Assembly (NCBI GenBank): GCA_022563255.1
Contig: JADFNS010000004.1
Span: 1-64,000 of the forward strand
Reading direction: 5' to 3'
Length of the DNA: 64,000 nucleotides
Origin: Pseudomonadota bacterium
GTDB lineage: Bacteria > Pseudomonadota > Gammaproteobacteria > Steroidobacterales > Woeseiaceae
The translations under genes and the position numbers were made by a program. The notes beneath the pieces are model-generated. The model saw only the letters and a program-made list of their open reading frames with translations, searched no databases and was not told the origin of the DNA. Every line of letters starts with the position of its first letter. Position 1 is the first letter of the stretch. This document shows positions 54,103 through 64,000 of this stretch, in pieces.

Positions 54103-55587
54103 ATGGGTGCTTACCTGCTAGCGATCGATCAGGGCACCAGCAGCAGCCGCACGGTGATTTACGATCACGCGATGTCGGTGGTCGCCAGCGCGCAGCAGGA
54201 ATTTCCGCAGATATATCCGCAGCCCGGATGGGTGGAGCACGATCCTGAGGCGATATGGGATTCCGTTTGTGCGGTCACCAGGAAGGCGCTGCACACCGCA
54301 GGTATCGGCGCGACCGACATCACGGCCATTGGTATTACAAACCAACGCGAGACCACGCTCATATGGGACCGCGAAACCGGACAGTGCGTGCACAATGCGA
54401 TTGTCTGGCAGGACCGGCGAACGACCAGGTTTTGTCAGGAACTAAAGGACGATGGACTTGAATCATTGGTCGCGGACAAGACCGGTCTGCGACTCGACCC
54501 GTATTTTTCGGCGACCAAGATTGCGTGGATACTCGACCATGTCGACGGCGCCCGCGCCCGGGCAGAGGCTGGCAAGCTTGCCTTTGGCACCGTCGATTGC
54601 TTTTTGTTGTGGCGTTTGACTGGCGGAAAACAGCACGCGACGGATGCGACGAATGCATCGCGAACCTTGCTCTTCAATATTCATACTCAGCAGTGGGATG
54701 ACGAACTGCTGAAAATATTTGGTATTCCGCGGCAGCTTTTGCCGGCAGTTAAAGACTGTGCTGATGATTTCGGTGTCGGGACGGATGCTTGTTTGGGCGG
54801 CGAAATTCCGATATTGGGAATGGCCGGCGACCAGCAGGCAGCTTTGTTCGGACAGGCAGGTCTGGACGACGGAATGACCAAGAGCACCTATGGTACAGGG
54901 TGTTTCGTCATCGCGAACACAGGCGCCAAGGTGCTGCATTCGGAGCATCGGCTGCTGAGCACAGTCGCAATGCGGCTGGACGGCGAGGTGACCTACGGCC
55001 TGGAGGGAAGCGTGTTCATTGCCGGATCAGCGATGCAGTGGTTGCGGGACGAGATGCAGATCATTGAGTCCGTCGCCGAGTCGGAAGCGATTGCAAAACG
55101 CACGGGCGTCGTTGCGGACGTGATCGTCGTGCCGGCTTTTGCAGGTCTGGGCGCGCCCTATTGGGACCCGGAAGCAAGAGGGGCGATTCTCGGTCTCACC
55201 CGCGGCAGCAGCCGCGATCAGGTCATTACCGCGACATTGCAGTCGGTTGCTTACCAGACTCGGGATCTCATTGACGCGATGGCGGACGACGGCATATCGC
55301 CCAGCGTTATTCGCGTCGACGGCGGCATGGTGAGCAATAATTGGTTTCTGCAGTTTCTGGCCGATATTCTGGATATTACGATTGAGAGGCCCGTTAACAT
55401 TGAATCGACCGCACTGGGTGCGGCGTATCTTGCGGCCTGCAAGGCGGACGTTATTTCCGGTCGCGATCAGATAGCGGATTATTGGCATTGTGAGTCGCAG
55501 TTCAATCCTTCAATGTCACAAGACCAAAGAAAACAATTGCTCGACGGCTGGAAGTCGGCTGTAAATCGAATTCGCACAAACGGATAA
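54103..55587 (+). CDS. glpK: Glycerol kinase
   Basis: The 494-residue product has the FGGY kinase motifs AIDQGTSSSRTVIYDHAMSV, GITNQRETTLIWDRETG, IVWQDRRT (catalytic Asp nearby), MTKSTYGTGCFVIANTG and FAGLGAPYWDPEARGAILGL with the C-terminal FGGY-type signature RVDGGMVSNNWFLQFLADIL. It phosphorylates glycerol to sn-glycerol-3-phosphate. ATG at 54103 begins the conserved fold one base after the upstream stop; the longer frame inside aacS is rejected. No glycerol facilitator or glycerol-3-phosphate dehydrogenase is adjacent. The kinase cluster begins 6 bp after its stop. Confidence 0.96.
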   Translation: MGAYLLAIDQGTSSSRTVIYDHAMSVVASAQQEFPQIYPQPGWVEHDPEAIWDSVCAVTRKALHTAGIGATDITAIGITNQRETTLIWDRETGQCVHNAIVWQDRRTTRFCQELKDDGLESLVADKTGLRLDPYFSATKIAWILDHVDGARARAEAGKLAFGTVDCFLLWRLTGGKQHATDATNASRTLLFNIHTQQWDDELLKIFGIPRQLLPAVKDCADDFGVGTDACLGGEIPILGMAGDQQAALFGQAGLDDGMTKSTYGTGCFVIANTGAKVLHSEHRLLSTVAMRLDGEVTYGLEGSVFIAGSAMQWLRDEMQIIESVAESEAIAKRTGVVADVIVVPAFAGLGAPYWDPEARGAILGLTRGSSRDQVITATLQSVAYQTRDLIDAMADDGISPSVIRVDGGMVSNNWFLQFLADILDITIERPVNIESTALGAAYLAACKADVISGRDQIADYWHCESQFNPSMSQDQRKQLLDGWKSAVNRIRTNG

Positions 55588-55593
55588 GAACCC

Positions 55594-56880
55594 TTGTTAA
55601 AAGCACGGCAAAGAATCGGCAAATACAGGATCCTCGGGAGAATCGCAAAGGGACCGCTGGCGGATGTATATCGCGCTCAGGACACCATTCAAAAAACGAA
55701 GGTCGCCCTGAAGATACCGAAAGCCGGCGACAATGCCGGGCATGAAGAATTTCTTCACGAAGTGCAAGTCGCGACGAAGTTGCGGCATCCGAATATACTG
55801 TCGGTGTTGAACGCGAGCTATATCGACGAACGTTTCGTCATCGCGATGGAGTTGGGCGAAGAGTCGCTTGCCGACCGTATCGAACGCCGGATTTCCACGA
55901 CGCGTGCTCTCGATCTCGCCGGGCAGGCGCTGGCCTCCATGGCCTATGCGCACGAACACAAGATTATCCATTGCGACATCAAGCCGGAAAACTTCATATT
56001 GTTTCCGGGTAACCGGCTGAAACTGGCTGATTTCGGATTCGCCAAGCTTGCCTTGCGGACGTTGAAAGCATCGGGTTCCGGAACAATCGATTACATCGCC
56101 CCCGAACAGGCAATGGGTCGGCCAAAATTTCAGTCGGACGTATTTTCCCTGGGCCTGGTAATTTATCGGCTGCTGTCCGGTAAGTTGCCGGAGTGGCCGT
56201 TCGAGTGGCCGTTTCCCGGCAAGGACAGGTTGGCGGCGCGCGTCAGGCCTGAGCTCATCGAGGTTCTGAAAAAGGCGATCCAGCTCGATCCCAGGCTGCG
56301 TTATCGGGATGCCATTCAAATGCAGGCCGCGTTTGTAAAAGCGCAGAGTCACGCGCGCCGGCAAAAAAGGGCCAGGTCCAAATCCGCTGTTCGCCGCGGG
56401 ACAGCGTGGCGGCAAATGCAATGGCGTGAATTTCGGCGGCAGTTCAGGCAACAACTGGATGCCCGGCACGCGTGCCGGAAGTGCGAAGGACCCGTCGCCC
56501 AGAGCATGCAATCGTGTCCGTGGTGTGGCTTCGATAACCCGGCGCGTGGCACCGAATCCAAAATGCCGTCGAGTTGCCCGCGCTGCGAGCGCGGCGTCAA
56601 GAACGACTGGGATTATTGTGCATGGTGTTATGGGCCGGGATTCGTCGCAGACAGTTCGAGAAGTTATCCGGACCAACGCTATACGGCTCAGTGTGAGAAC
56701 GCGCGCTGTCGCGAGCCATTGATGCCATTCATGCGCTATTGCCCGTGGTGTCACAAGAAAGTACGACGACCCTGGAAACTGCAGGGTAGCCGGCACTCCT
56801 GCAGGGCTTGCAACTGGGGCATCGCGCGAGAATTTTGGAATTACTGTGCGTGGTGTCGTGAGCCGGTGGCACGTGAGTAA
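55594..56880 (+). CDS. Ser/Thr protein kinase with four C-terminal zinc ribbons
   Basis: The 428-residue product has a Hanks-type kinase domain (about 10-250): Lys40 in VALKIPK, Asp128 in HCDIKPEN, DFG at 146-148 and APE at 169-171. The G-loop is altered (IAKGPLADVY). A basic linker (250-290, RRQKRARSKSAVRR) leads to four CxxC-CxxC zinc ribbons with cysteines at 294/297/308/311, 328/331/342/345, 367/372/383/386 and 403/406/418/421, each ending in C-(P/A)-W-C. There is no membrane helix, so it should be cytoplasmic. TTG at 55594 is the likely start. Its stop overlaps the phosphatase start (GTGAGTAA). Ribbon arrays of this kind may bind partners or nucleic acid. Confidence 0.9.
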   Translation: MLKARQRIGKYRILGRIAKGPLADVYRAQDTIQKTKVALKIPKAGDNAGHEEFLHEVQVATKLRHPNILSVLNASYIDERFVIAMELGEESLADRIERRISTTRALDLAGQALASMAYAHEHKIIHCDIKPENFILFPGNRLKLADFGFAKLALRTLKASGSGTIDYIAPEQAMGRPKFQSDVFSLGLVIYRLLSGKLPEWPFEWPFPGKDRLAARVRPELIEVLKKAIQLDPRLRYRDAIQMQAAFVKAQSHARRQKRARSKSAVRRGTAWRQMQWREFRRQFRQQLDARHACRKCEGPVAQSMQSCPWCGFDNPARGTESKMPSSCPRCERGVKNDWDYCAWCYGPGFVADSSRSYPDQRYTAQCENARCREPLMPFMRYCPWCHKKVRRPWKLQGSRHSCRACNWGIAREFWNYCAWCREPVARE

Positions 56881-57703
56881 GCGACCCGACGACATGCTGC
56901 TACTGGACGGCGCGCTCGAGTTTCACTGCGTTGAGTTGCAGGTTGCCGGTGGCAACCTGGTCGCCTATACCTGTCGAGACCCGTACAAGAAAACTGAAAA
57001 CGAAGACACAGTCGCCATTATTCCCTGTGGGCCCGAAGCCGCTGTTTTCGTTGTTGCCGACGGCGCCGGAGGATTGCCGGCGGGCAAGCGGGCGTCGCTT
57101 ACCGCCGTTGAAACACTGGCGGCGTCATTGCAGCGCGCAAAGGACAAAACCACTTCGCTGAGAACCGCAATTCTTAACGGGATAGAGGCCGCCAACGTCG
57201 CTGTACTGGAGATCGGCAACGGGTCGGCAACCACATTGACCGTGATCTCGATAGAAGGACGAAGCGTACGGTCCTACCAGATCGGCGATTCCGAGGCGAT
57301 CGTGATCGGGCAGAGGGGACTGGTGAAAATGCAAACAACGGTGCATTCGCCAACCGGCTTCGCCGTAGAGGCGGGTTTCCTCGATGAGCGAGAAGCGTTG
57401 CACCACGATCTACGACATCTGGTGTCGAATTTCATTGGCACGATCGATATGGGCATTGACGTCGGCGCCGCGGTCGAACTCGATCTCAAAGACACGATTC
57501 TAGTGGCCAGCGATGGCCTGACGGACAATGTGCACGTCGACGAAATCATAGAACTCGTACGCAAAGGGCCGCTGGCGGACGCTATGAGTGCGACCGTGAA
57601 CTTTGCCAATCGTCGCATGCTGATGCCGGGCGCGGGTCAGCCCAGCAAATCCGACGATCTGTCGCTGATACTCTTTCGCAAGCCCAAATGCTCCAGTATT
57701 TAA
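56873..57703 (+). CDS. PP2C-type Ser/Thr phosphatase
   Basis: The 276-residue product has the PP2C metal-binding and catalytic motifs: NEDTVAIIPC, FVVADGAGGLPAGKRAS (Asp-Gly pair near 63), SYQIGDSEAIVIGQRG, VASDGLTDNVHVDEII and KSDDLSLILF. It should remove phosphates from the targets of the two flanking kinases. GTG at 56873 overlaps the kinase stop by 8 bp, showing translational coupling; an ATG 21 bases later is a possible alternative. The N-terminal 25 residues before the fold are unassigned. Confidence 0.9.
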   Translation: MSKRPDDMLLLDGALEFHCVELQVAGGNLVAYTCRDPYKKTENEDTVAIIPCGPEAAVFVVADGAGGLPAGKRASLTAVETLAASLQRAKDKTTSLRTAILNGIEAANVAVLEIGNGSATTLTVISIEGRSVRSYQIGDSEAIVIGQRGLVKMQTTVHSPTGFAVEAGFLDEREALHHDLRHLVSNFIGTIDMGIDVGAAVELDLKDTILVASDGLTDNVHVDEIIELVRKGPLADAMSATVNFANRRMLMPGAGQPSKSDDLSLILFRKPKCSSI

Positions 57704-57840
57704 CATTATCAACAGCTTACCTGATGATGAACGGTCGTCAGGGGAGTATCATCGTGAAAGTGCAGCGATCATGCGGCGATGATGGAACTCAACGTGCCTT
57801 TTGGTGCTCAAACCCTTAGATATCAGTGAGGCCGACGACG

Positions 57841-58725
57841 ATGATACAGACTCATACCACAGCGTTCATAAACGGACTTTTTCGACTGGGAGCGACCATC
57901 GTCGTTTCTGCATTGTTCCTCAACGGCTGCGCAAGCGGCATTTCTTACAATTCCGGCATCAGCCTGCCGGGCGGCGGCAGCGTCGGTGGCGGACTGCCGG
58001 GAGGCGGTTCATCCGGGGGTTCATCGGGCGATTCGTCGGGTGGGGGCATGCAAATGCCGGGCGGCGGCGCCTCGGGCGGCGGCTCCTCCGGTGGTGGTTC
58101 GCCCAGCGGCGGTGGCGCATCGGGTGGCGGCACATCCGGTGCTTCTGGCACCATGGGCGGACAAAGCTCGATTCCGCAGGTCGGACTGCCGGGCGGTGGC
58201 GCCGACGGTCAGGACTGCGATGACGGCGGTATTTCCGGTGGTGGATTCGGCGGCGGCATGGACTGCGACCCGTCAGGTGACATTGGTCAATTTCCGGGTG
58301 ACGCGGAGCGTGCGGAAGAACTGGGTGCGGAACTCGACAAGTCGGTCGGAGAATTTGATGAGGCGCTGGCTGACGAACAACGTGAAATTTCATCTGTCGG
58401 TCGCAATACGGAAGGCTTTGGCAGTGGCTCAAGCGGATCCGGCGGCACGATCAGTCTCGGCGAGCAGGCGGCGGGAGCGTCCGGCGGCAGTGGCGGTGGC
58501 AGTGGTGGCGCTGGCGGTGCGGCGGGTAGCAGCGAGACAGAATCCGGTCCTCTGGACGGCATGAGCGATCAGGATATTCGGGCGCGCACGCCCGACGATA
58601 TTGACGCGACGACATACGACGACATCGTTGCGCGCCAGCTGCGCGAAGCGGCGATCGCAGAAGACGATCCTGAGCTGCGCGAGCGGCTCTGGGAAGAATA
58701 TCGTAAATACAAAGGACTGAAATAG
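57841..58725 (+). CDS. Gly/Ser-rich lipoprotein
   Basis: The 294-residue product has a lipoprotein signal (ATIVVSALFLNGCASG, lipidated Cys near 30), then about 95 residues of low-complexity Gly/Ser with PGGGSVGG-, SSGGGSP- and GGGASGGG-type repeats, a Cys pair region (DCDDGG, MDCDPSG), a short helix-forming acidic part (RAEELGAELDKSVGEFDEAL), a second Gly/Ser stretch, and a charged C-terminal helix (DIVARQLREAAIAEDDPELR). The flexible arm could span the periplasm or be a display linker. ATG at 57841 has GAGG upstream. It sits in the kinase cluster, 137 bp after the phosphatase gene. Function unknown. Confidence 0.75.
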   Translation: MIQTHTTAFINGLFRLGATIVVSALFLNGCASGISYNSGISLPGGGSVGGGLPGGGSSGGSSGDSSGGGMQMPGGGASGGGSSGGGSPSGGGASGGGTSGASGTMGGQSSIPQVGLPGGGADGQDCDDGGISGGGFGGGMDCDPSGDIGQFPGDAERAEELGAELDKSVGEFDEALADEQREISSVGRNTEGFGSGSSGSGGTISLGEQAAGASGGSGGGSGGAGGAAGSSETESGPLDGMSDQDIRARTPDDIDATTYDDIVARQLREAAIAEDDPELRERLWEEYRKYKGLK

Positions 58726-58739
58726 GACCAGCTATCGAC

Positions 58740-59975
58740 ATGTCAAGACTTGCATTATTGCTTGCGGCTCTGGCTGTTTTCAACTCGGGCTGTGCTGTTC
58801 AGGAACTCATCATTGCAGAGGAGACTGAGCTCGCTGTCGCGGTTTCGAGCATCGACGAAGCCGTGCTGCTCGATATTGGAATCGTGGAATTCGATGCCGG
58901 CATTCCGAACAATAATCGCCCGGAAAAGACCGGTATTTACGGGACAATTCGTCGTGCTGAAGCAAAGTACATTCCGTACCATCTCAAGACGACATTGCAG
59001 GGAACCGGTTACTGGGGGGCGGTTCGCGTCATACCTTCTGAACGGGCTTTTACGGACATCATCGTCAGCGGTGCGATCCGGAAATCAGATGGCGAATACA
59101 TAGAGCTGCAAATCGCGGTGAGAGATACGTCGGGACGCCACTGGTTTACCCGCACTTATAAAATGCAGACCGGGCTGGCGTCCTATTCCAAGCGACGGGA
59201 CAGGCGGCGCGACCCCTACCAGAAAGTTTTCAACGATTTCGCCAATGATCTGCAGCAATACGCCGCCCAGTTACCGGGAAAGCAGTTGCGTCAGGTGCGG
59301 CAAATATCGGAGCTGCGGTTTTTCAATGACATGTCGCCAGCGGCCTATCGCGACTACCTTGCGACCGACGATCATGGCGTTACCAGTGTCCTGCGCTTGC
59401 CGGCCGAGAACGATCCTGCAGTTGCCCGTTTGCGACAGATTCGGGAACGCGACCGTCTGGTTGTCGACACGTTGAACGAGCACTATGCCAATTTTTACTA
59501 CGGAATCGCGATTCCGTATCGAAGCTGGCGGCAGCATTCCCGGACGGAGTCGATAAAGTTTCGCCAGGAAAAAAGATCAGCTCACATGCAGGCGCTCGTC
59601 GGCGTGGTCGTGCTGGCAGGCTCAACGCAAATCGACACACGGAGCTCGTCGAGTCGCAATACGAGAAACATCAACAGGGCACTGCAATACGAGGGTATAT
59701 CTCGTGGCTTCAGCACGATTTTCGAGGCCTTCAATCGCAATCGGGAAGCCGGGCTGCATCTGGAGGCGATCGCCGAGTTGTCGGAATCGTTTGGCGGTGA
59801 AGCGGCGCCGATGGTTGTTAATGTCGAGGGACAGGAACGACGCCTGACCGGTACTGCCGAGGCGCAGTACGAGAGCTGGCGACAGTTGTTGAAAGAAATT
59901 TATGAGGCCGAAACGGGGTTTTCCCAAACCGTTGAGGTAGGTGCACCCGTGCGTGTGCCTGATCCGACGGGATAA
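58740..59975 (+). CDS. Hypothetical lipoprotein of the kinase cluster
   Basis: The 411-residue product has a lipoprotein signal (LALLLAALAVFNSGCAVQ) with Cys18 as the lipid site. The mature part begins with an alpha/beta region (LLDIGIVEFDAG, PYHLKTTLQGTGYWGAVRVI, IVSGAIRKSDGEYIELQIAV) that recalls the small lipoprotein domains able to form periplasmic assemblies, followed by helical sequence. The middle contains basic helices (SYSKRRDRRRDPYQ) and a hydrophobic VVVLAGSTQ. No named family is recognised. It lies 14 bp after the Gly/Ser-rich lipoprotein and 14 bp before the transmembrane kinase. Confidence 0.72.
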   Translation: MSRLALLLAALAVFNSGCAVQELIIAEETELAVAVSSIDEAVLLDIGIVEFDAGIPNNNRPEKTGIYGTIRRAEAKYIPYHLKTTLQGTGYWGAVRVIPSERAFTDIIVSGAIRKSDGEYIELQIAVRDTSGRHWFTRTYKMQTGLASYSKRRDRRRDPYQKVFNDFANDLQQYAAQLPGKQLRQVRQISELRFFNDMSPAAYRDYLATDDHGVTSVLRLPAENDPAVARLRQIRERDRLVVDTLNEHYANFYYGIAIPYRSWRQHSRTESIKFRQEKRSAHMQALVGVVVLAGSTQIDTRSSSSRNTRNINRALQYEGISRGFSTIFEAFNRNREAGLHLEAIAELSESFGGEAAPMVVNVEGQERRLTGTAEAQYESWRQLLKEIYEAETGFSQTVEVGAPVRVPDPTG

Positions 59976-59989
59976 GCCGCCGGCACAAA

Positions 59990-62452
59990 ATGCTTGAACT
60001 CAGCAAAGGAAACCAACTAGCCGACAGATACGCACTGATTCGCAGGTTGGGCGGCGGCGGTGAAGCGCAGTTGTGGCTTGCCAAAGATCGCCTGACGGCG
60101 GCGTTCGTCGCGCTGAAAATTACGAACGGTGATGCGCGAAGTACCGAGCGCTTGCGCGCCGAGTGGCAAACCAGCATCCGCCTGATGCACGCGCATATCG
60201 TGCGCGTATTCGAATTTCATGCGGAAGCGAACGCAGCGTTCTATGCTCAACAGTACATCGATGGCACAGACCTGAGCGTGCTTGGTGGCCTGTCGCCGTC
60301 CGAAATACTGGGCCCGGTCGGCTTGCTTGCAGAAGCCCTTCGTTACGCGCATGCCAAGGGCATTGTTCATCGCGACGTCAAAGCGTCCAATGTGCTGCTC
60401 GACGCTCGCGGCGCCCCCTATCTCAGCGACTTCGGCGTTTCCTGCGCCACGGGGGAGGTTGGCGAAGGCGGCTCGCTGATCGCACAAAGTCCGCAGTCGC
60501 TCGCTGGCCAACCCGCGATGCCGGCCGACGACATTTTCGCATTGGGCGGTCTGATCTACGAATTGGTATCCGGTCGTTCACCCTGGTCGTCGGCTGACAC
60601 CGCCGCAGACATTCGGGAGAAGAATCCCGCGTTAGTGAGTTCTGCAGACGGTATTGAATTACCGGCGGCATTGGTGAAGCTGGTGGCGCGCATGCTCGAC
60701 AAGAACGCGAGCAGCAGACCCGACGCTGCGGAGGTTGTGGCAGGACTCAAAGATGCTGGATTCGTGCCGCGAGCGGCTTCGATACGCAGCGATGCACGAC
60801 CGCGGTTGACCGACGAGCTGGTAGAAACCGTTGCATCTGTTCGTTCTGTGTCGCGCAAAGACGATAGCGGTCCCGAGGTCGCCATCACGGACGCCCCGGG
60901 GATTAACCGCAACGTAATGATCGCATCCCTGGGTGCGCTGCTGGCCGTCCTGATTGGCGTGGTCGTCGTCTTGCCGGACAGGGTGGATCAGGAAATGTTG
61001 GAGCAGCCGGCCGACGCCGGGGAAATGCTCGATTCGCCAGGATCACAAGCCGTTGCAGACAGACTTGTTGGCGAGGACATAAGCGACACCGATGCCGCAC
61101 TCGTTGATCCTGAAATTCGCAGTCGCTTAAGGCTCGAGGCGGAACTGCCTGTGCGCAAACTCGAGGGAGACTACGACATTACATTCAGCGAGAACATGGC
61201 CGACTACAGTGGCCTCGATGAAGAAGGTCATGCTCGATTTAAGACGGAACTGGCTCTTGGCGAATTGTTGTCTGCTTTCGAAGTGCTCAATGGGCGGGGA
61301 ATTCAGCGCTGGGCGCCGATGGAGTATCGCAAGGCGAAAGAGCTTTATGCGGCTGGTGACCAGCGGTACCTCGACAGAGAATTCTCGAATGCCGAAGAAT
61401 TGTATCTGCAGGCGCTGACGGTTCTTGAACCGACCTACGAACGCATCGAGCCGGCATTTCTGGCTGCCTATGCGCAGGCACAGGTAGCGTTCGATGAGGG
61501 TGACAGGTTGGAAGCGCTGCGACTGTATGAACTCGCTGTCGCCATAACGCCCAGCCACCCTGGTGCGGTGGCGGGTTATGAACGCGCGAAGAATCTGGAG
61601 GCCGTACTGAGACTTGTCGATCAGGGTCTGGCGTATGAGAAAGATTTGGAATTGGTAGCGGCACAACGAAGCTTTGAGCAGGCAGTCGAACTGGATGGCC
61701 TGTGGGAACCGGCGCAATCCGGACTCGACCGCGTGCAGCGGATTTGGACGGAAATGGAATTCGATCTCCGCATGACCGAGGGATTCGAATCGATTGCGGC
61801 CGGCGATTATCTGGGCGCCCGTGCCGCATTTCGTATCGCTCAACGACTGATTCCGATTTCGACAGAGCCGGCTGACGGCCTGCTGCAGGTTGATCAGGGT
61901 CTGCATCTGGAAAACATCAGTACACTGGAGCGCGAGGCCAGAATCCTGGAAAGCGATGAGCACTGGGATGCCGTCGTGAAGACATACGAAGAGATTCTGA
62001 AAGTGGATAACAGCCTGTCGTTTGCAAATGATGGTTTGCTGCACGCGCGCGAAATGCAGGCCTTGCATGCCCGTCTGGACGACTATATCGCCGAGCCCGA
62101 TCGACTGAGCGTTCCTTCGACAATGCGGAAGGCGACGACGCTGGTCGTCGATATCACCACTCGCGGGAACATTGGTCCGCGTCTTGCGGGTCAACGTGAC
62201 ACGCTGTCGAGGTTGCTGAAACGGGCCGCGACTCCGCTGACCGTGGCCCTGGTGTCCGACAACATGACAGACGTCTCGATTTATAAAGTCGGCAGACTCG
62301 GAAGCTTTATGAGAAAAGAAGTGCGTCTGCGTCCCGGCACCTACATCGCCGTGGGTTCGCGGCTTGGTTATCGTGACGTGCGGTTGGAATTTCGCGTCGG
62401 ACCGGAAAACGATATCGGACCCGTCATCGTCCAGTGTGAGGAACGAATTTGA
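59990..62452 (+). CDS. Transmembrane Ser/Thr protein kinase with TPR-like and PEGA-like C-terminal region
   Basis: The 820-residue product has an N-terminal Hanks-type kinase (about 12-260): GGGGEAQLWL glycine loop, Lys43 in VALKI, HRDVKASN (Asp129) and DFG at 147-149. The APE motif is replaced by SPQSLAG. One membrane helix (309-328) separates the cytoplasmic kinase from a large outer part: acidic linker, three to four TPR-like helix pairs (AEELYLQALTVLEPTYERIE; YELAVAITPSHPGAVAGYER; QRSFEQAVELDGLWEPAQSG) and a C-terminal beta region (VRLRPGTYIAVGSRLGYRDV) resembling PEGA or carbohydrate-like domains. The stop overlaps the next gene start by 4 bp. Confidence 0.9.
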   Translation: MLELSKGNQLADRYALIRRLGGGGEAQLWLAKDRLTAAFVALKITNGDARSTERLRAEWQTSIRLMHAHIVRVFEFHAEANAAFYAQQYIDGTDLSVLGGLSPSEILGPVGLLAEALRYAHAKGIVHRDVKASNVLLDARGAPYLSDFGVSCATGEVGEGGSLIAQSPQSLAGQPAMPADDIFALGGLIYELVSGRSPWSSADTAADIREKNPALVSSADGIELPAALVKLVARMLDKNASSRPDAAEVVAGLKDAGFVPRAASIRSDARPRLTDELVETVASVRSVSRKDDSGPEVAITDAPGINRNVMIASLGALLAVLIGVVVVLPDRVDQEMLEQPADAGEMLDSPGSQAVADRLVGEDISDTDAALVDPEIRSRLRLEAELPVRKLEGDYDITFSENMADYSGLDEEGHARFKTELALGELLSAFEVLNGRGIQRWAPMEYRKAKELYAAGDQRYLDREFSNAEELYLQALTVLEPTYERIEPAFLAAYAQAQVAFDEGDRLEALRLYELAVAITPSHPGAVAGYERAKNLEAVLRLVDQGLAYEKDLELVAAQRSFEQAVELDGLWEPAQSGLDRVQRIWTEMEFDLRMTEGFESIAAGDYLGARAAFRIAQRLIPISTEPADGLLQVDQGLHLENISTLEREARILESDEHWDAVVKTYEEILKVDNSLSFANDGLLHAREMQALHARLDDYIAEPDRLSVPSTMRKATTLVVDITTRGNIGPRLAGQRDTLSRLLKRAATPLTVALVSDNMTDVSIYKVGRLGSFMRKEVRLRPGTYIAVGSRLGYRDVRLEFRVGPENDIGPVIVQCEERI

Positions 62453-64000
62453 GTCTCGACCACCTTTTTGTCACGGATGTAACGGGCGAGCGGCGAATCG
62501 GCAGAGCCGGGTTGCCGCTGCGCGTCGGTACTGGCAGCGAGTGCGAACTTCGGCTGCCGGGTCCTGGCGGCGAACCCATCGCGCTGCTTGATCTGCTGGA
62601 CGGTGTGCCATTCGTACAGCCAGTGGGACGCGACACGTCGCTGCAACTCAACGACGTTCCTCTCGAGGCCAGCCGTCGCCTGCAAGATGGTGATGTGCTG
62701 CGATTCTTTGGCAGCCAGATTCACATCAGCGTTACTGACGAAAGAGTGGGGATCAATGTTCGTCTCGAGGACAGCGCGTACGTAACCCGGCCCCCGGAGG
62801 TTGACGGCGACGCCAATCGTTCAGGTGACGAGTCGATTGCGCCAACCGCATTTAGTCGTGCCGCGCGAATCAGCGCGCAAATGCAGGAGTCGAAGCGCAG
62901 TCCGCTCAAGACCATCGCTGGTGGCGGCTTGTTCGTGTTGCTGCTAGTGTCTTATGTGTTATTTACGTCCAAATCAGTCGAGTTCGATATTGATCCGAGC
63001 GGTCCGGACTGGTTGAATATTGACGGCGGCTGGTTTCGACTGCCGATCGGCAATCGCATGTTGCTGCGCAAGGGCAACTATACGGTCAATGTCGCAAGAA
63101 AAGGCTATTACGACGTCTCGCAGACGTTCGTCGTTGGCGACGATCAGGCCATGACCGTGAAGCTACGGATGCGAAAAAAACCCGGTCGGCTAATGGTCGT
63201 GACAGATGCAGCGATCGCAGCTGTCATTACGTTGGATGAATCGCTGGTGGGCAAGGCGCCGTACGGTCCCGTGGAACTGGAGCCGGGTGAACACTCGATT
63301 CGGGTTGAATCGCCACGCTTCCTGCCGTTCGAAGATTTCATTCACATTGCCGGGCTGGACCAACTCGAGAGCCTGCACGTGCAGTTAATTCCGCGATGGG
63401 CGAACGTCGAGGTACGATCCGAACCCGCAGGCGCAAAAATTTACTCCGGCGATAAGGAGCTGGGTATTACTCCGGCCGTTGTACAGCTATTGGAGGGTAC
63501 GCACGACTTGACCGTGATCAAAGACGGTTTCAGCGCATGGGACGGCAAGATCGTTGCCGTACCCAATGTCGGCCAGGTATTGCCGTCAATTAGACTGCAG
63601 CCGGCAAATGCGAGCCTGCTGGTCAATACGATTCCGCGCGGCGCCAATGTCACCGTCAACGGCCGATATCGCGGTCAGTCGCCTATTACGATTTCGCTTT
63701 CGCCGGATATTGACTACGTCATAGGCATGTCAAAAGCGGGCTATGGAGTGACGAGTCGAAGTTTGCGCCTGAAGGCTGCCGCGAGGGAAACGATTTCCGT
63801 TGACCTGTCCGCTCGCGTTGGCACGGTGACGGTCAACGTCGTACCGAGCGATGCAATCGTATACGTGGACGGTCAGGCTCGTGGCACTGGTAAGACCATC
63901 GTGCGCTTGAGTTCCGCACCGCATCGCATAGAGGTCAAACGTCAGGGCTTTCGCGACTGGTCACGCATGATAACGCCGCGGCCGGGTTATCCGCAGACCG
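62449..64000 (+). CDS. FHA-like/transmembrane/PEGA-repeat protein (partial at window end)
   Basis: An open frame from TTG at 62449 runs to the end of the window (517 complete codons). The first about 95 residues resemble a degenerate FHA domain (RAGLPLRVGTGSECELRLPG, LQLNDVPLE, LQDGDVLRFFGSQIHI) but lack the phospho-binding Ser-x-x-His. A membrane helix (154-173) is followed by at least five PEGA-type beta repeats of about 70 residues, such as SEPAGAKIYSGDKELGITPA, TIPRGANVTVNGRYRGQSPI and VPSDAIVYVDGQARGTGKTI, ending with KRQGFRDW. The start overlaps the kinase stop (TTGA). The C terminus, possibly another catalytic or binding domain, is outside the window. Confidence 0.87.
   Translation, partial: MSLDHLFVTDVTGERRIGRAGLPLRVGTGSECELRLPGPGGEPIALLDLLDGVPFVQPVGRDTSLQLNDVPLEASRRLQDGDVLRFFGSQIHISVTDERVGINVRLEDSAYVTRPPEVDGDANRSGDESIAPTAFSRAARISAQMQESKRSPLKTIAGGGLFVLLLVSYVLFTSKSVEFDIDPSGPDWLNIDGGWFRLPIGNRMLLRKGNYTVNVARKGYYDVSQTFVVGDDQAMTVKLRMRKKPGRLMVVTDAAIAAVITLDESLVGKAPYGPVELEPGEHSIRVESPRFLPFEDFIHIAGLDQLESLHVQLIPRWANVEVRSEPAGAKIYSGDKELGITPAVVQLLEGTHDLTVIKDGFSAWDGKIVAVPNVGQVLPSIRLQPANASLLVNTIPRGANVTVNGRYRGQSPITISLSPDIDYVIGMSKAGYGVTSRSLRLKAAARETISVDLSARVGTVTVNVVPSDAIVYVDGQARGTGKTIVRLSSAPHRIEVKRQGFRDWSRMITPRPGYPQT

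Follow-up and report, generated by a model that had tools for sequence, protein, structure and literature searches.

A conserved locus for a putative TolQ-vWA envelope motor with a candidate phospho-control layer in Woeseiaceae

Introduction

Proton-driven 5:2 motors power flagella, the Tol and Ton systems and gliding, and Zorya defence is also driven by a motor of this kind. Here, we describe a locus of a Woeseiaceae bacterium (Pseudomonadota, Gammaproteobacteria; GenBank assembly GCA_022563255.1, contig JADFNS010000004.1) whose left half lies at the end of a 64,000-nucleotide stretch, positions 1 to 64,000 of the contig, referred to below as the window. Judged by the gene content, gene order, folds and residues observed, this locus probably encodes a trans-envelope machine driven by proton motive force, equipped in Woeseiaceae with a cytoplasmic phospho-control layer. 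The motor stands in a conserved core together with two lipoproteins (o4 and o3), a TPR arm and a PEGA/FGE-like (formylglycine-generating enzyme-like) arm in Woeseiaceae, other gammaproteobacterial families and Mariprofundaceae, which is new here, as is the conserved x-P-x-[D/N]-I tail of a tiny, apparently secreted protein. A further new point is that phosphorylation seems to have been added onto the motor later, as a means of control. In the open-access literature, to which our comparison refers, we found the core partners, the tailed small protein and the kinase domain of the crown group undescribed.

Motors composed of a TolQ homologue and a vWA pair were proposed only in 2025, from Idiomarina and others on the basis of AlphaFold 3 (AF3) models and without a known function (PMC12204202). 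Compared by its described parts, this TolQ/TPH-vWA type resembles the present locus in combining a TolQ homologue with two heterologous vWA genes whose transmembrane helix carries an Asp, and in having no TolR or ExbD gene; the word 'kinase' occurs nowhere in the main text of PMC12204202, whereas kinases stand at the present locus, and four further parts go unmentioned in section 8 of that paper: the TolB-like lipoprotein, the PEGA/FGE-like arm, the Hsp70-FHA protein and the small tailed protein. The terms vWA, von Willebrand and kinase do not occur in the main text of PMC12905483 or of PMC9389320. In the account of PMC3169522, Myxococcus GltG, a protein with a cytosolic FHA domain and a transmembrane segment, links the outer membrane to a TolQR-like motor, and a threonine phosphorylation pathway is described for the type VI secretion system (T6SS) in PMC5995506.

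Results

A twelve-gene locus runs past the end of the window

The original prediction, made from the window, described six genes as a possible envelope phospho-signalling system. These six same-strand genes are real in the layout it gave, including the 137 bp between phosphatase and lipoprotein (o2 to o3) in the coordinates of the open reading frames (ORFs), except that its starting point, 54103, is the start of glpK and the cluster itself starts at 55594. They form the left half of a locus of 12 genes that runs past base 64000 on contig C6 (176,848 bases) of a 2.45 Mb, 84% complete genome; for genes past base 64000, the coordinates below are those of stretch L042 plus 56000.

54103-55587, + strand: glpK (glycerol kinase), preceding the cluster
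55594-56880, + strand: o1, cytoplasmic Ser/Thr kinase with C-terminal zinc ribbons (Pkinase 3.3e-36; start codon uncertain)
56846-57703, + strand: o2, PP2C phosphatase (PP2C_2 2.8e-12; start codon uncertain)
57841-58725, + strand: o3, probable lipoprotein with a Gly/Ser-rich tether and a conserved C-terminal helical head
58740-59975, + strand: o4, probable lipoprotein with a TolB-N/CsgG-like domain (about 36-184) and a long helical part
59990-62452, + strand: o5, Ser/Thr kinase domain, transmembrane segment and periplasmic TPR arm (Pkinase 1.4e-29)
62449-64875, + strand: o6, FHA-like part, transmembrane segment, four PEGA repeats and FGE-sulfatase-like domain (808 aa, the first 517 inside the window)
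64891-65145: o6b, small, apparently secreted protein (84 aa)
65142 or 65172 (start) to 65972: o7, MotA/TolQ/ExbB protein (PF01618 4.5e-14)
65986-67347: o8, Hsp70-fold-FHA protein (C-terminal FHA 5.6e-13)
67337-68437: o9, vWA1 (VWA_2 26.7 bits, under the cut-off of 27)
68450-69439: o10, vWA2 (VWA_2 22.1 bits, under the cut-off of 27)
69588-70292: o11, OmpA protein (OmpA 1.8e-13)

Most of the predicted domains were recovered by Pfam, namely both kinases, the PP2C and the four PEGA repeats of the sixth gene, while the zinc ribbon of o1 (DZR 7.6e-6) fell just under the cut-off. For the membrane kinase, predicted to carry a TPR/PEGA periplasmic half, TPR_2 matched below the Pfam cut-off (5.2e-5) behind a predicted transmembrane segment at 318-336 of the open frame, and Pfam gave no PEGA match with the whole protein or, at E<=1, with its C-terminal 217 residues. 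The FHA-like call on o6 matched weakly (17.3 bits against a cut-off of 20.7), and the gene runs on beyond the window to an FGE-sulfatase-like C-terminal domain (1.3e-42).

A standard T6SS locus continuing to the right, which would have refuted the original prediction, was not seen: the ORF list of the 12 kb that follow (to base 76000) contains no T6SS gene, with Pfam applied to about 70.8 kb. A PpkA/PppA/Fha-type switch acting on a T6SS nearby or elsewhere would fit the kinase, PP2C and FHA-like genes standing together in one locus, as they do in those systems, but a TolQ-vWA motor occupies the place of the T6SS here. VipB was not found in this 84% complete genome and occurs in 4 of 60 relatives, as against 55 of 60 for o4 or a relative of it (one genome, G012, holding a distant paralogue only). 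We therefore rejected the T6SS link, which is extremely improbable given the absence of downstream T6SS genes, the failure to find VipB and its rarity in relatives.

A TolQ homologue stands beside a pair of vWA proteins

In this genome, a TolQ homologue stands beside vWA genes, the vWA pair carries a transmembrane Asp, the Thr residues likened by eye to the pore ring are conserved and no ExbD gene lies at the locus. Both o9 and o10 begin with a short basic stretch followed by (F/L)LD...(C/S) and a hydrophobic run forming one transmembrane helix, in which the Asp is invariant (103/103 sequences of o9, 101/101 of o10); the D-x-S-x-S of the metal ion-dependent adhesion site (MIDAS) is intact in 102/103 and 101/101, respectively. 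In o7, GT200, T223 and T233 are invariant in 110/110 sequences, and their equivalence to the TolQ pore Thr ring was judged by eye. The genome holds seven ExbD (PF02472) matches, none at the locus, and a separate tolQRAB set at C25. A PDB sequence search returned nothing for o7 and six weak matches for o9, none named as a vWA protein.

On the same contig, two ExbD genes lie at G000:C6:102366-103321 (L148, L149), preceded by a gene that looks ExbB-like by eye and followed by one for a large protein; this two-ExbD locus at 102-103 kb is perhaps a separate motor locus of the AglRQS-Glt kind.

A surface-motility or adhesin-transport machine working like the Myxococcus AglRQS-Glt gliding complex is an unlikely reading of the twelve genes. 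We know of no gliding in Woeseiaceae, Pfam scans of the locus found neither a TonB domain nor an autotransporter-like barrel, and the motor partners at the locus are vWA rather than ExbD proteins, the two-ExbD locus of this genome lying elsewhere. Shared with Agl-Glt as presented in PMC3169522 are nevertheless a TolQ homologue, two proteins in the TolR position, an FHA-transmembrane-periplasmic protein, TPR proteins and a short secreted protein, and PMC12204202 cites a role of vWA adhesins in gliding. The two differ in that AglQ/S of Myxococcus xanthus are of the ExbD type and GltG has a TonB domain, where o9/o10 are vWA proteins and o6 has PEGA and FGE parts; kinase, PP2C, PEGA and FGE parts are not mentioned in that account of Agl-Glt (PMC3169522).

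Gene order is conserved across lineages

We compared gene order in a Woeseiaceae-like set (the best 80 of 92 relatives' loci, one assembly being counted twice), an order-level set of 20 loci and a class- and phylum-level set of 30 (20 from 31 class matches, 10 from the phylum search), contig ends limiting the pair counts throughout. Wherever both members of a pair were present in Woeseiaceae-like loci, they had the same strand and order: o1-o2 59/59, o2-o3 60/60, o3-o4 78/78, o4-o5 80/80, o5-o6 74/74, o6-o7 67/67, o7-o8 63/63, o8-o9 58/58, o9-o10 56/56 and o10-o11 45/45, with a few large intergenic gaps (up to 5.1 kb, at o2-o3). The 20 order-level loci gave o3-o4 17/17, o4-o5 19/19, o5-o6 19/19, o6-o7 17/17, o7-o8 16/16, o8-o9 14/14 and o9-o10 15/15, and none of the pairs glpK-o1, o1-o2 and o2-o3. 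The o1 kinase adjoins the core directly upstream in Woeseiaceae-like loci only, and in one order-level locus, L143, o1- and o2-like genes are placed downstream of it.

The same core recurs in the 30 class- and phylum-level loci as far as contigs extend, the exceptions being o4, unrecognised in L170 and L180, and o7, unrecognised in L170; in family f106 (L163, L180) the o7 ExbB gene sits behind o10 and the small tailed gene stays on the o6 side. Since the order recurs in many families, it goes beyond chance, in agreement with the conservation expected from the original prediction. The o4 profile matches 36/37 same-genus genomes, and the vWA1 profile matches 31/369 class genomes and 15/398 phylum genomes, 12 of these 15 belonging to one family (f220), which its protein names identify as Mariprofundaceae. 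Candidatus Kentrum and a Desulfobacterales metagenome-assembled genome (MAG) are among the 120 best vWA1 matches listed, and the named relatives of o4 are Woeseiaceae plus MAGs titled Gammaproteobacteria, Proteobacteria or Chromatiales. No match was found when a plasmid collection was searched with vWA1.

This distribution also bears on an anti-phage role, either through a Zorya-like motor or a kinase-based system, which is very unlikely. Both kinases match the PD-T4-6 and MAD6 profiles, and o7 and o11 gave weak ZorA2 (18.9 bits) and ZorB (14 bits) matches, respectively; however, the kinase matches look generic, lying far under the NCBIfam cut-off for MAD6, and neither ZorC nor ZorD was among the matches listed for the ten locus proteins scanned. 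Zorya consists of ZorA and ZorB (MotB-OmpA) plus ZorC/D or ZorE, and defence islands are usually patchy, whereas o4 is present in nearly every same-genus genome, the gene order is fixed and vWA1 is without a plasmid match. With PADLOC matches that were weak or generic only and a composition other than that of Zorya, this candidate was set aside.

A small protein between o6 and o7 ends in a fixed tail

Every o6-o7 stretch examined contains a short ORF with a fixed tail, and the beginning of this ORF resembles a signal peptide by eye. A first, narrow tail pattern was found in 96/111 loci, and the wider [FYLW]P.[DNE][IVL] in 110/111; for this intermediate pattern, the opposite strand gave 0/111 and fragments made by single-base shuffling gave 0/2220. 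The final x-P-x-[D/N]-I C-terminal tail, widened post hoc after MPSDI and LPADI had been seen, was present in 113/113 loci examined, which are not 113 independent events because the sequences are related. Beyond the tail pattern, the 68 Woeseiaceae-like proteins have F/Y at -5 (all), I/V at -13 (all), P at -17 (93%) and F at -19 (all), and the same positions are kept in 91%, 78%, 71% and 62% of 45 other sequences. The remainder is acidic and variable in Woeseiaceae, and in Mariprofundaceae hardly anything is left besides a signal-like segment and the tail, which thus persists where little else of the protein does.

Lipoproteins and periplasmic arms of the core

The lipobox of o3, LNGC, was judged by eye, and an automatic pattern fits 47/80 o3 orthologues, whose starts are uncertain. 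Its conserved head spans DDIVARQLREAA..DPELREKLWEEYRKYK, and the head pattern was found in 109/124 sequences, being variant or absent in 15. A PDB sequence search with o4 found nothing. In an active formylglycine-generating enzyme, we take a catalytic Cys pair to be expected after RGGSW in a domain of the o6 type; a Cys within 14 residues after RGxxW was found in 0/113 sequences, and by this sequence sign the o6 domain fails as an active enzyme of that kind.

These parts recall Tol-Pal, and an envelope-maintenance or outer-membrane lipid machine running parallel to the genome's own Tol-Pal is a tentative possibility, somewhat doubtful in our estimate. The TolQ homologue, the TPR protein, the OmpA-type protein and the o4 fold resembling the TolB N-domain all have counterparts there, and, as the canonical tolQRAB is encoded separately, both machines can coexist. 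Unlike Tol-Pal, the locus shows no TolA or TonB domain, no TolB propeller and no canonical TolR domain in Pfam scans, and vWA proteins stand in place of TolR.

Phospho-signalling parts are confined to some lineages

Woeseiaceae-like loci preserve their catalytic residues. The o5 kinase residues K, E, HxD, N and DFG are intact in 74/74 sequences; among 59 sequences of o1, the VAIK Lys is kept in 58, HxD and N in 59, the Asp and Gly of DFG in 59 and its Phe in 57, the PE of APE in 59 and its Ala in 53, and the tested ribbon Cys in 59; and the o2 catalytic residues (Asp of NED, ADG, GDS, SDG) are kept in 61/61. In the structural model, o8 residues 1-322 have the overall Hsp70/DnaK nucleotide-binding fold, with D10, D149, G297 and G298 (L046 numbering) invariant in the alignment and phosphate loops that look degenerate by eye. 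A PDB sequence search with o8 gave 32 matches, to FHA domains only, within the FHA part or (EmbR) from residue 304 on. Canonical phosphothreonine-binding FHA residues are Gly-Arg, Ser-x-x-His and Asn-Gly; of 91 o8 sequences, 74 have the Ser, 74 the His and 84 the Asn.

Outside Woeseiaceae, these parts thin out. Nine of the 14 aligned order-level o5 proteins retain K, HxD and DFG; those of L130, L132 and L134, at about 500 aa, are too short for a kinase domain, and those of L131 and L137 are split. The 24 o5 frames among the 30 class- and phylum-level loci measure 283-575 aa and have their transmembrane segment, where predicted among those examined, inside the first 130 residues, so that there is no room for a kinase domain; a Pfam kinase search of two of them found none, and no PP2C was recognised in the 30 locus stretches. 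Missing altogether is o8 from the Mariprofundaceae loci, L162, L164, L166, L168, L169, L175, L176, L181, L132 and the second core copies L202/L203, while in L168, L175 and L181 o6 still has an FHA-like N-terminus by eye.

In a quick-method o9 (vWA1) tree of 53 rows, with rows of unknown or atypical state excluded from each change count, the intact o5 kinase domain needs at least 4 changes and o8 needs 3. With Mariprofundaceae as the chosen root, the earliest branches are these loci, L164, L162 and L202/L203, all of which lack both the kinase domain and o8; midpoint rooting divides the tree between those nine rows and the remaining 44. Some branches of this tree are long, and support is poor at 17 forks. 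Under both roots, only an inner (crown) group within the 44 has the kinase domain, which was most simply gained later and then lost repeatedly. The many relatives without a recognisable kinase domain or PP2C, some also without the Hsp70-FHA protein, suggest that phospho-signalling is a control layer and not the system itself. The original prediction is partly supported: the system is a distinct, envelope-linked one, with its heart not in the kinase-phosphatase part but in a probable TolQ/ExbB-vWA motor outside the window.

A proposed mechanism and its weak points

We infer motor assembly, rotation, tail binding and phospho-gating along the following lines. The o7 protein would form a pentamer around the o9/o10 pair, which proton flow would rotate, and the periplasmic vWA heads would grip and release partners that connect, at the outer membrane, to o3, o4 and o6. 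A candidate ligand of the MIDAS is the acidic tail of o6b. In Woeseiaceae, the two kinases, the PP2C and the FHA parts (o8, and a degenerate one on o6) would act on the motor as cytoplasmic controls: o5 may convey a periplasmic signal to its own kinase domain, phosphorylation may recruit o8 to the motor or release it, and the PP2C would reset the state. Taken in full, this picture would be that of a phospho-gated, proton-driven motor of a new class: a heterodimeric vWA rotor turns within a TolQ-like pentamer, its MIDAS metal holds the C-terminal F-P-x-D-I tail of the small protein, and rotation is coupled at the outer membrane to the TolB-like lipoprotein and the tethered one, while in Woeseiaceae the motor is engaged or disengaged by kinases, PP2C and an Hsp70-like FHA switch. 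Such a reading is speculative and, in all its details together, improbable. The machine may serve surface transport, adhesion or envelope maintenance; we know of no phenotype for the locus.

Several observations weigh against the proposed phospho-controlled envelope machine. Scored without gaps against ExbD/TolR, the vWA helix matches weakly, at about 2 standard deviations over shuffles, with offsets of +3 to +6 about equal or better, and a TolR-like role is accordingly argued from position, the Asp and published models. The automatic lipobox was missed in about half of the o3 and o4 sequences. The match of o4 to TolB is at fold level, with low TM-scores and none below E 0.001, and in a second structural comparison the top rows match the long helices rather than the TolB-N-like domain. 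At the canonical Arg position, the o8 FHA domain has S in 43, T in 23 and R in only 3 of 91 sequences, and with the o6 FHA part degenerate as well, phosphothreonine binding is doubtful. Among the 14 aligned order-level o5 proteins, the kinase is degenerate or motif-less in L129, L133 and L143 and atypical in L128 and L144, and many relatives retain o8 yet show no kinase domain on o5.

If the locus does encode the phospho-controlled machine, it supplies the vWA motors with a partner list and with a defined small tail as a testable ligand, and presents a case of Ser/Thr kinases, a phosphatase and an Hsp70-fold-FHA protein beside a vWA motor. How such a force-generating envelope machine comes under phospho-control can be tested by comparing lineages that have the signalling parts with lineages that lack them.

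Paralogous copies and neighbouring genes

Two f8 genomes (G056, G043) hold a second complete core copy (L202, L203) without kinase domain or o8, in which the small protein ends in LPADI. Several relatives have distant o4 paralogues that stand apart from the other locus genes (L196-L201, L204-L207). Of 12 regions examined for a hidden second locus, 9 have o4 alone and 2, both in f8, are the second core copies; the twelfth, L205, has o4 and an o5-like match (118 bits, in an 818-aa frame) about 3 kb apart. Split reading frames in vWA1, o5 or o6 of L060, L091, L131 and L137 reflect assembly errors or decaying genes. An Rfam scan of 20 kb (L042) gave no match. A pterin dehydratase gene follows o11 and seldom adjoins the locus elsewhere, and glpK lies upstream of o1 on the same strand in 54/54 Woeseiaceae-like loci showing both, at a distance of 50 bases or less in 36.

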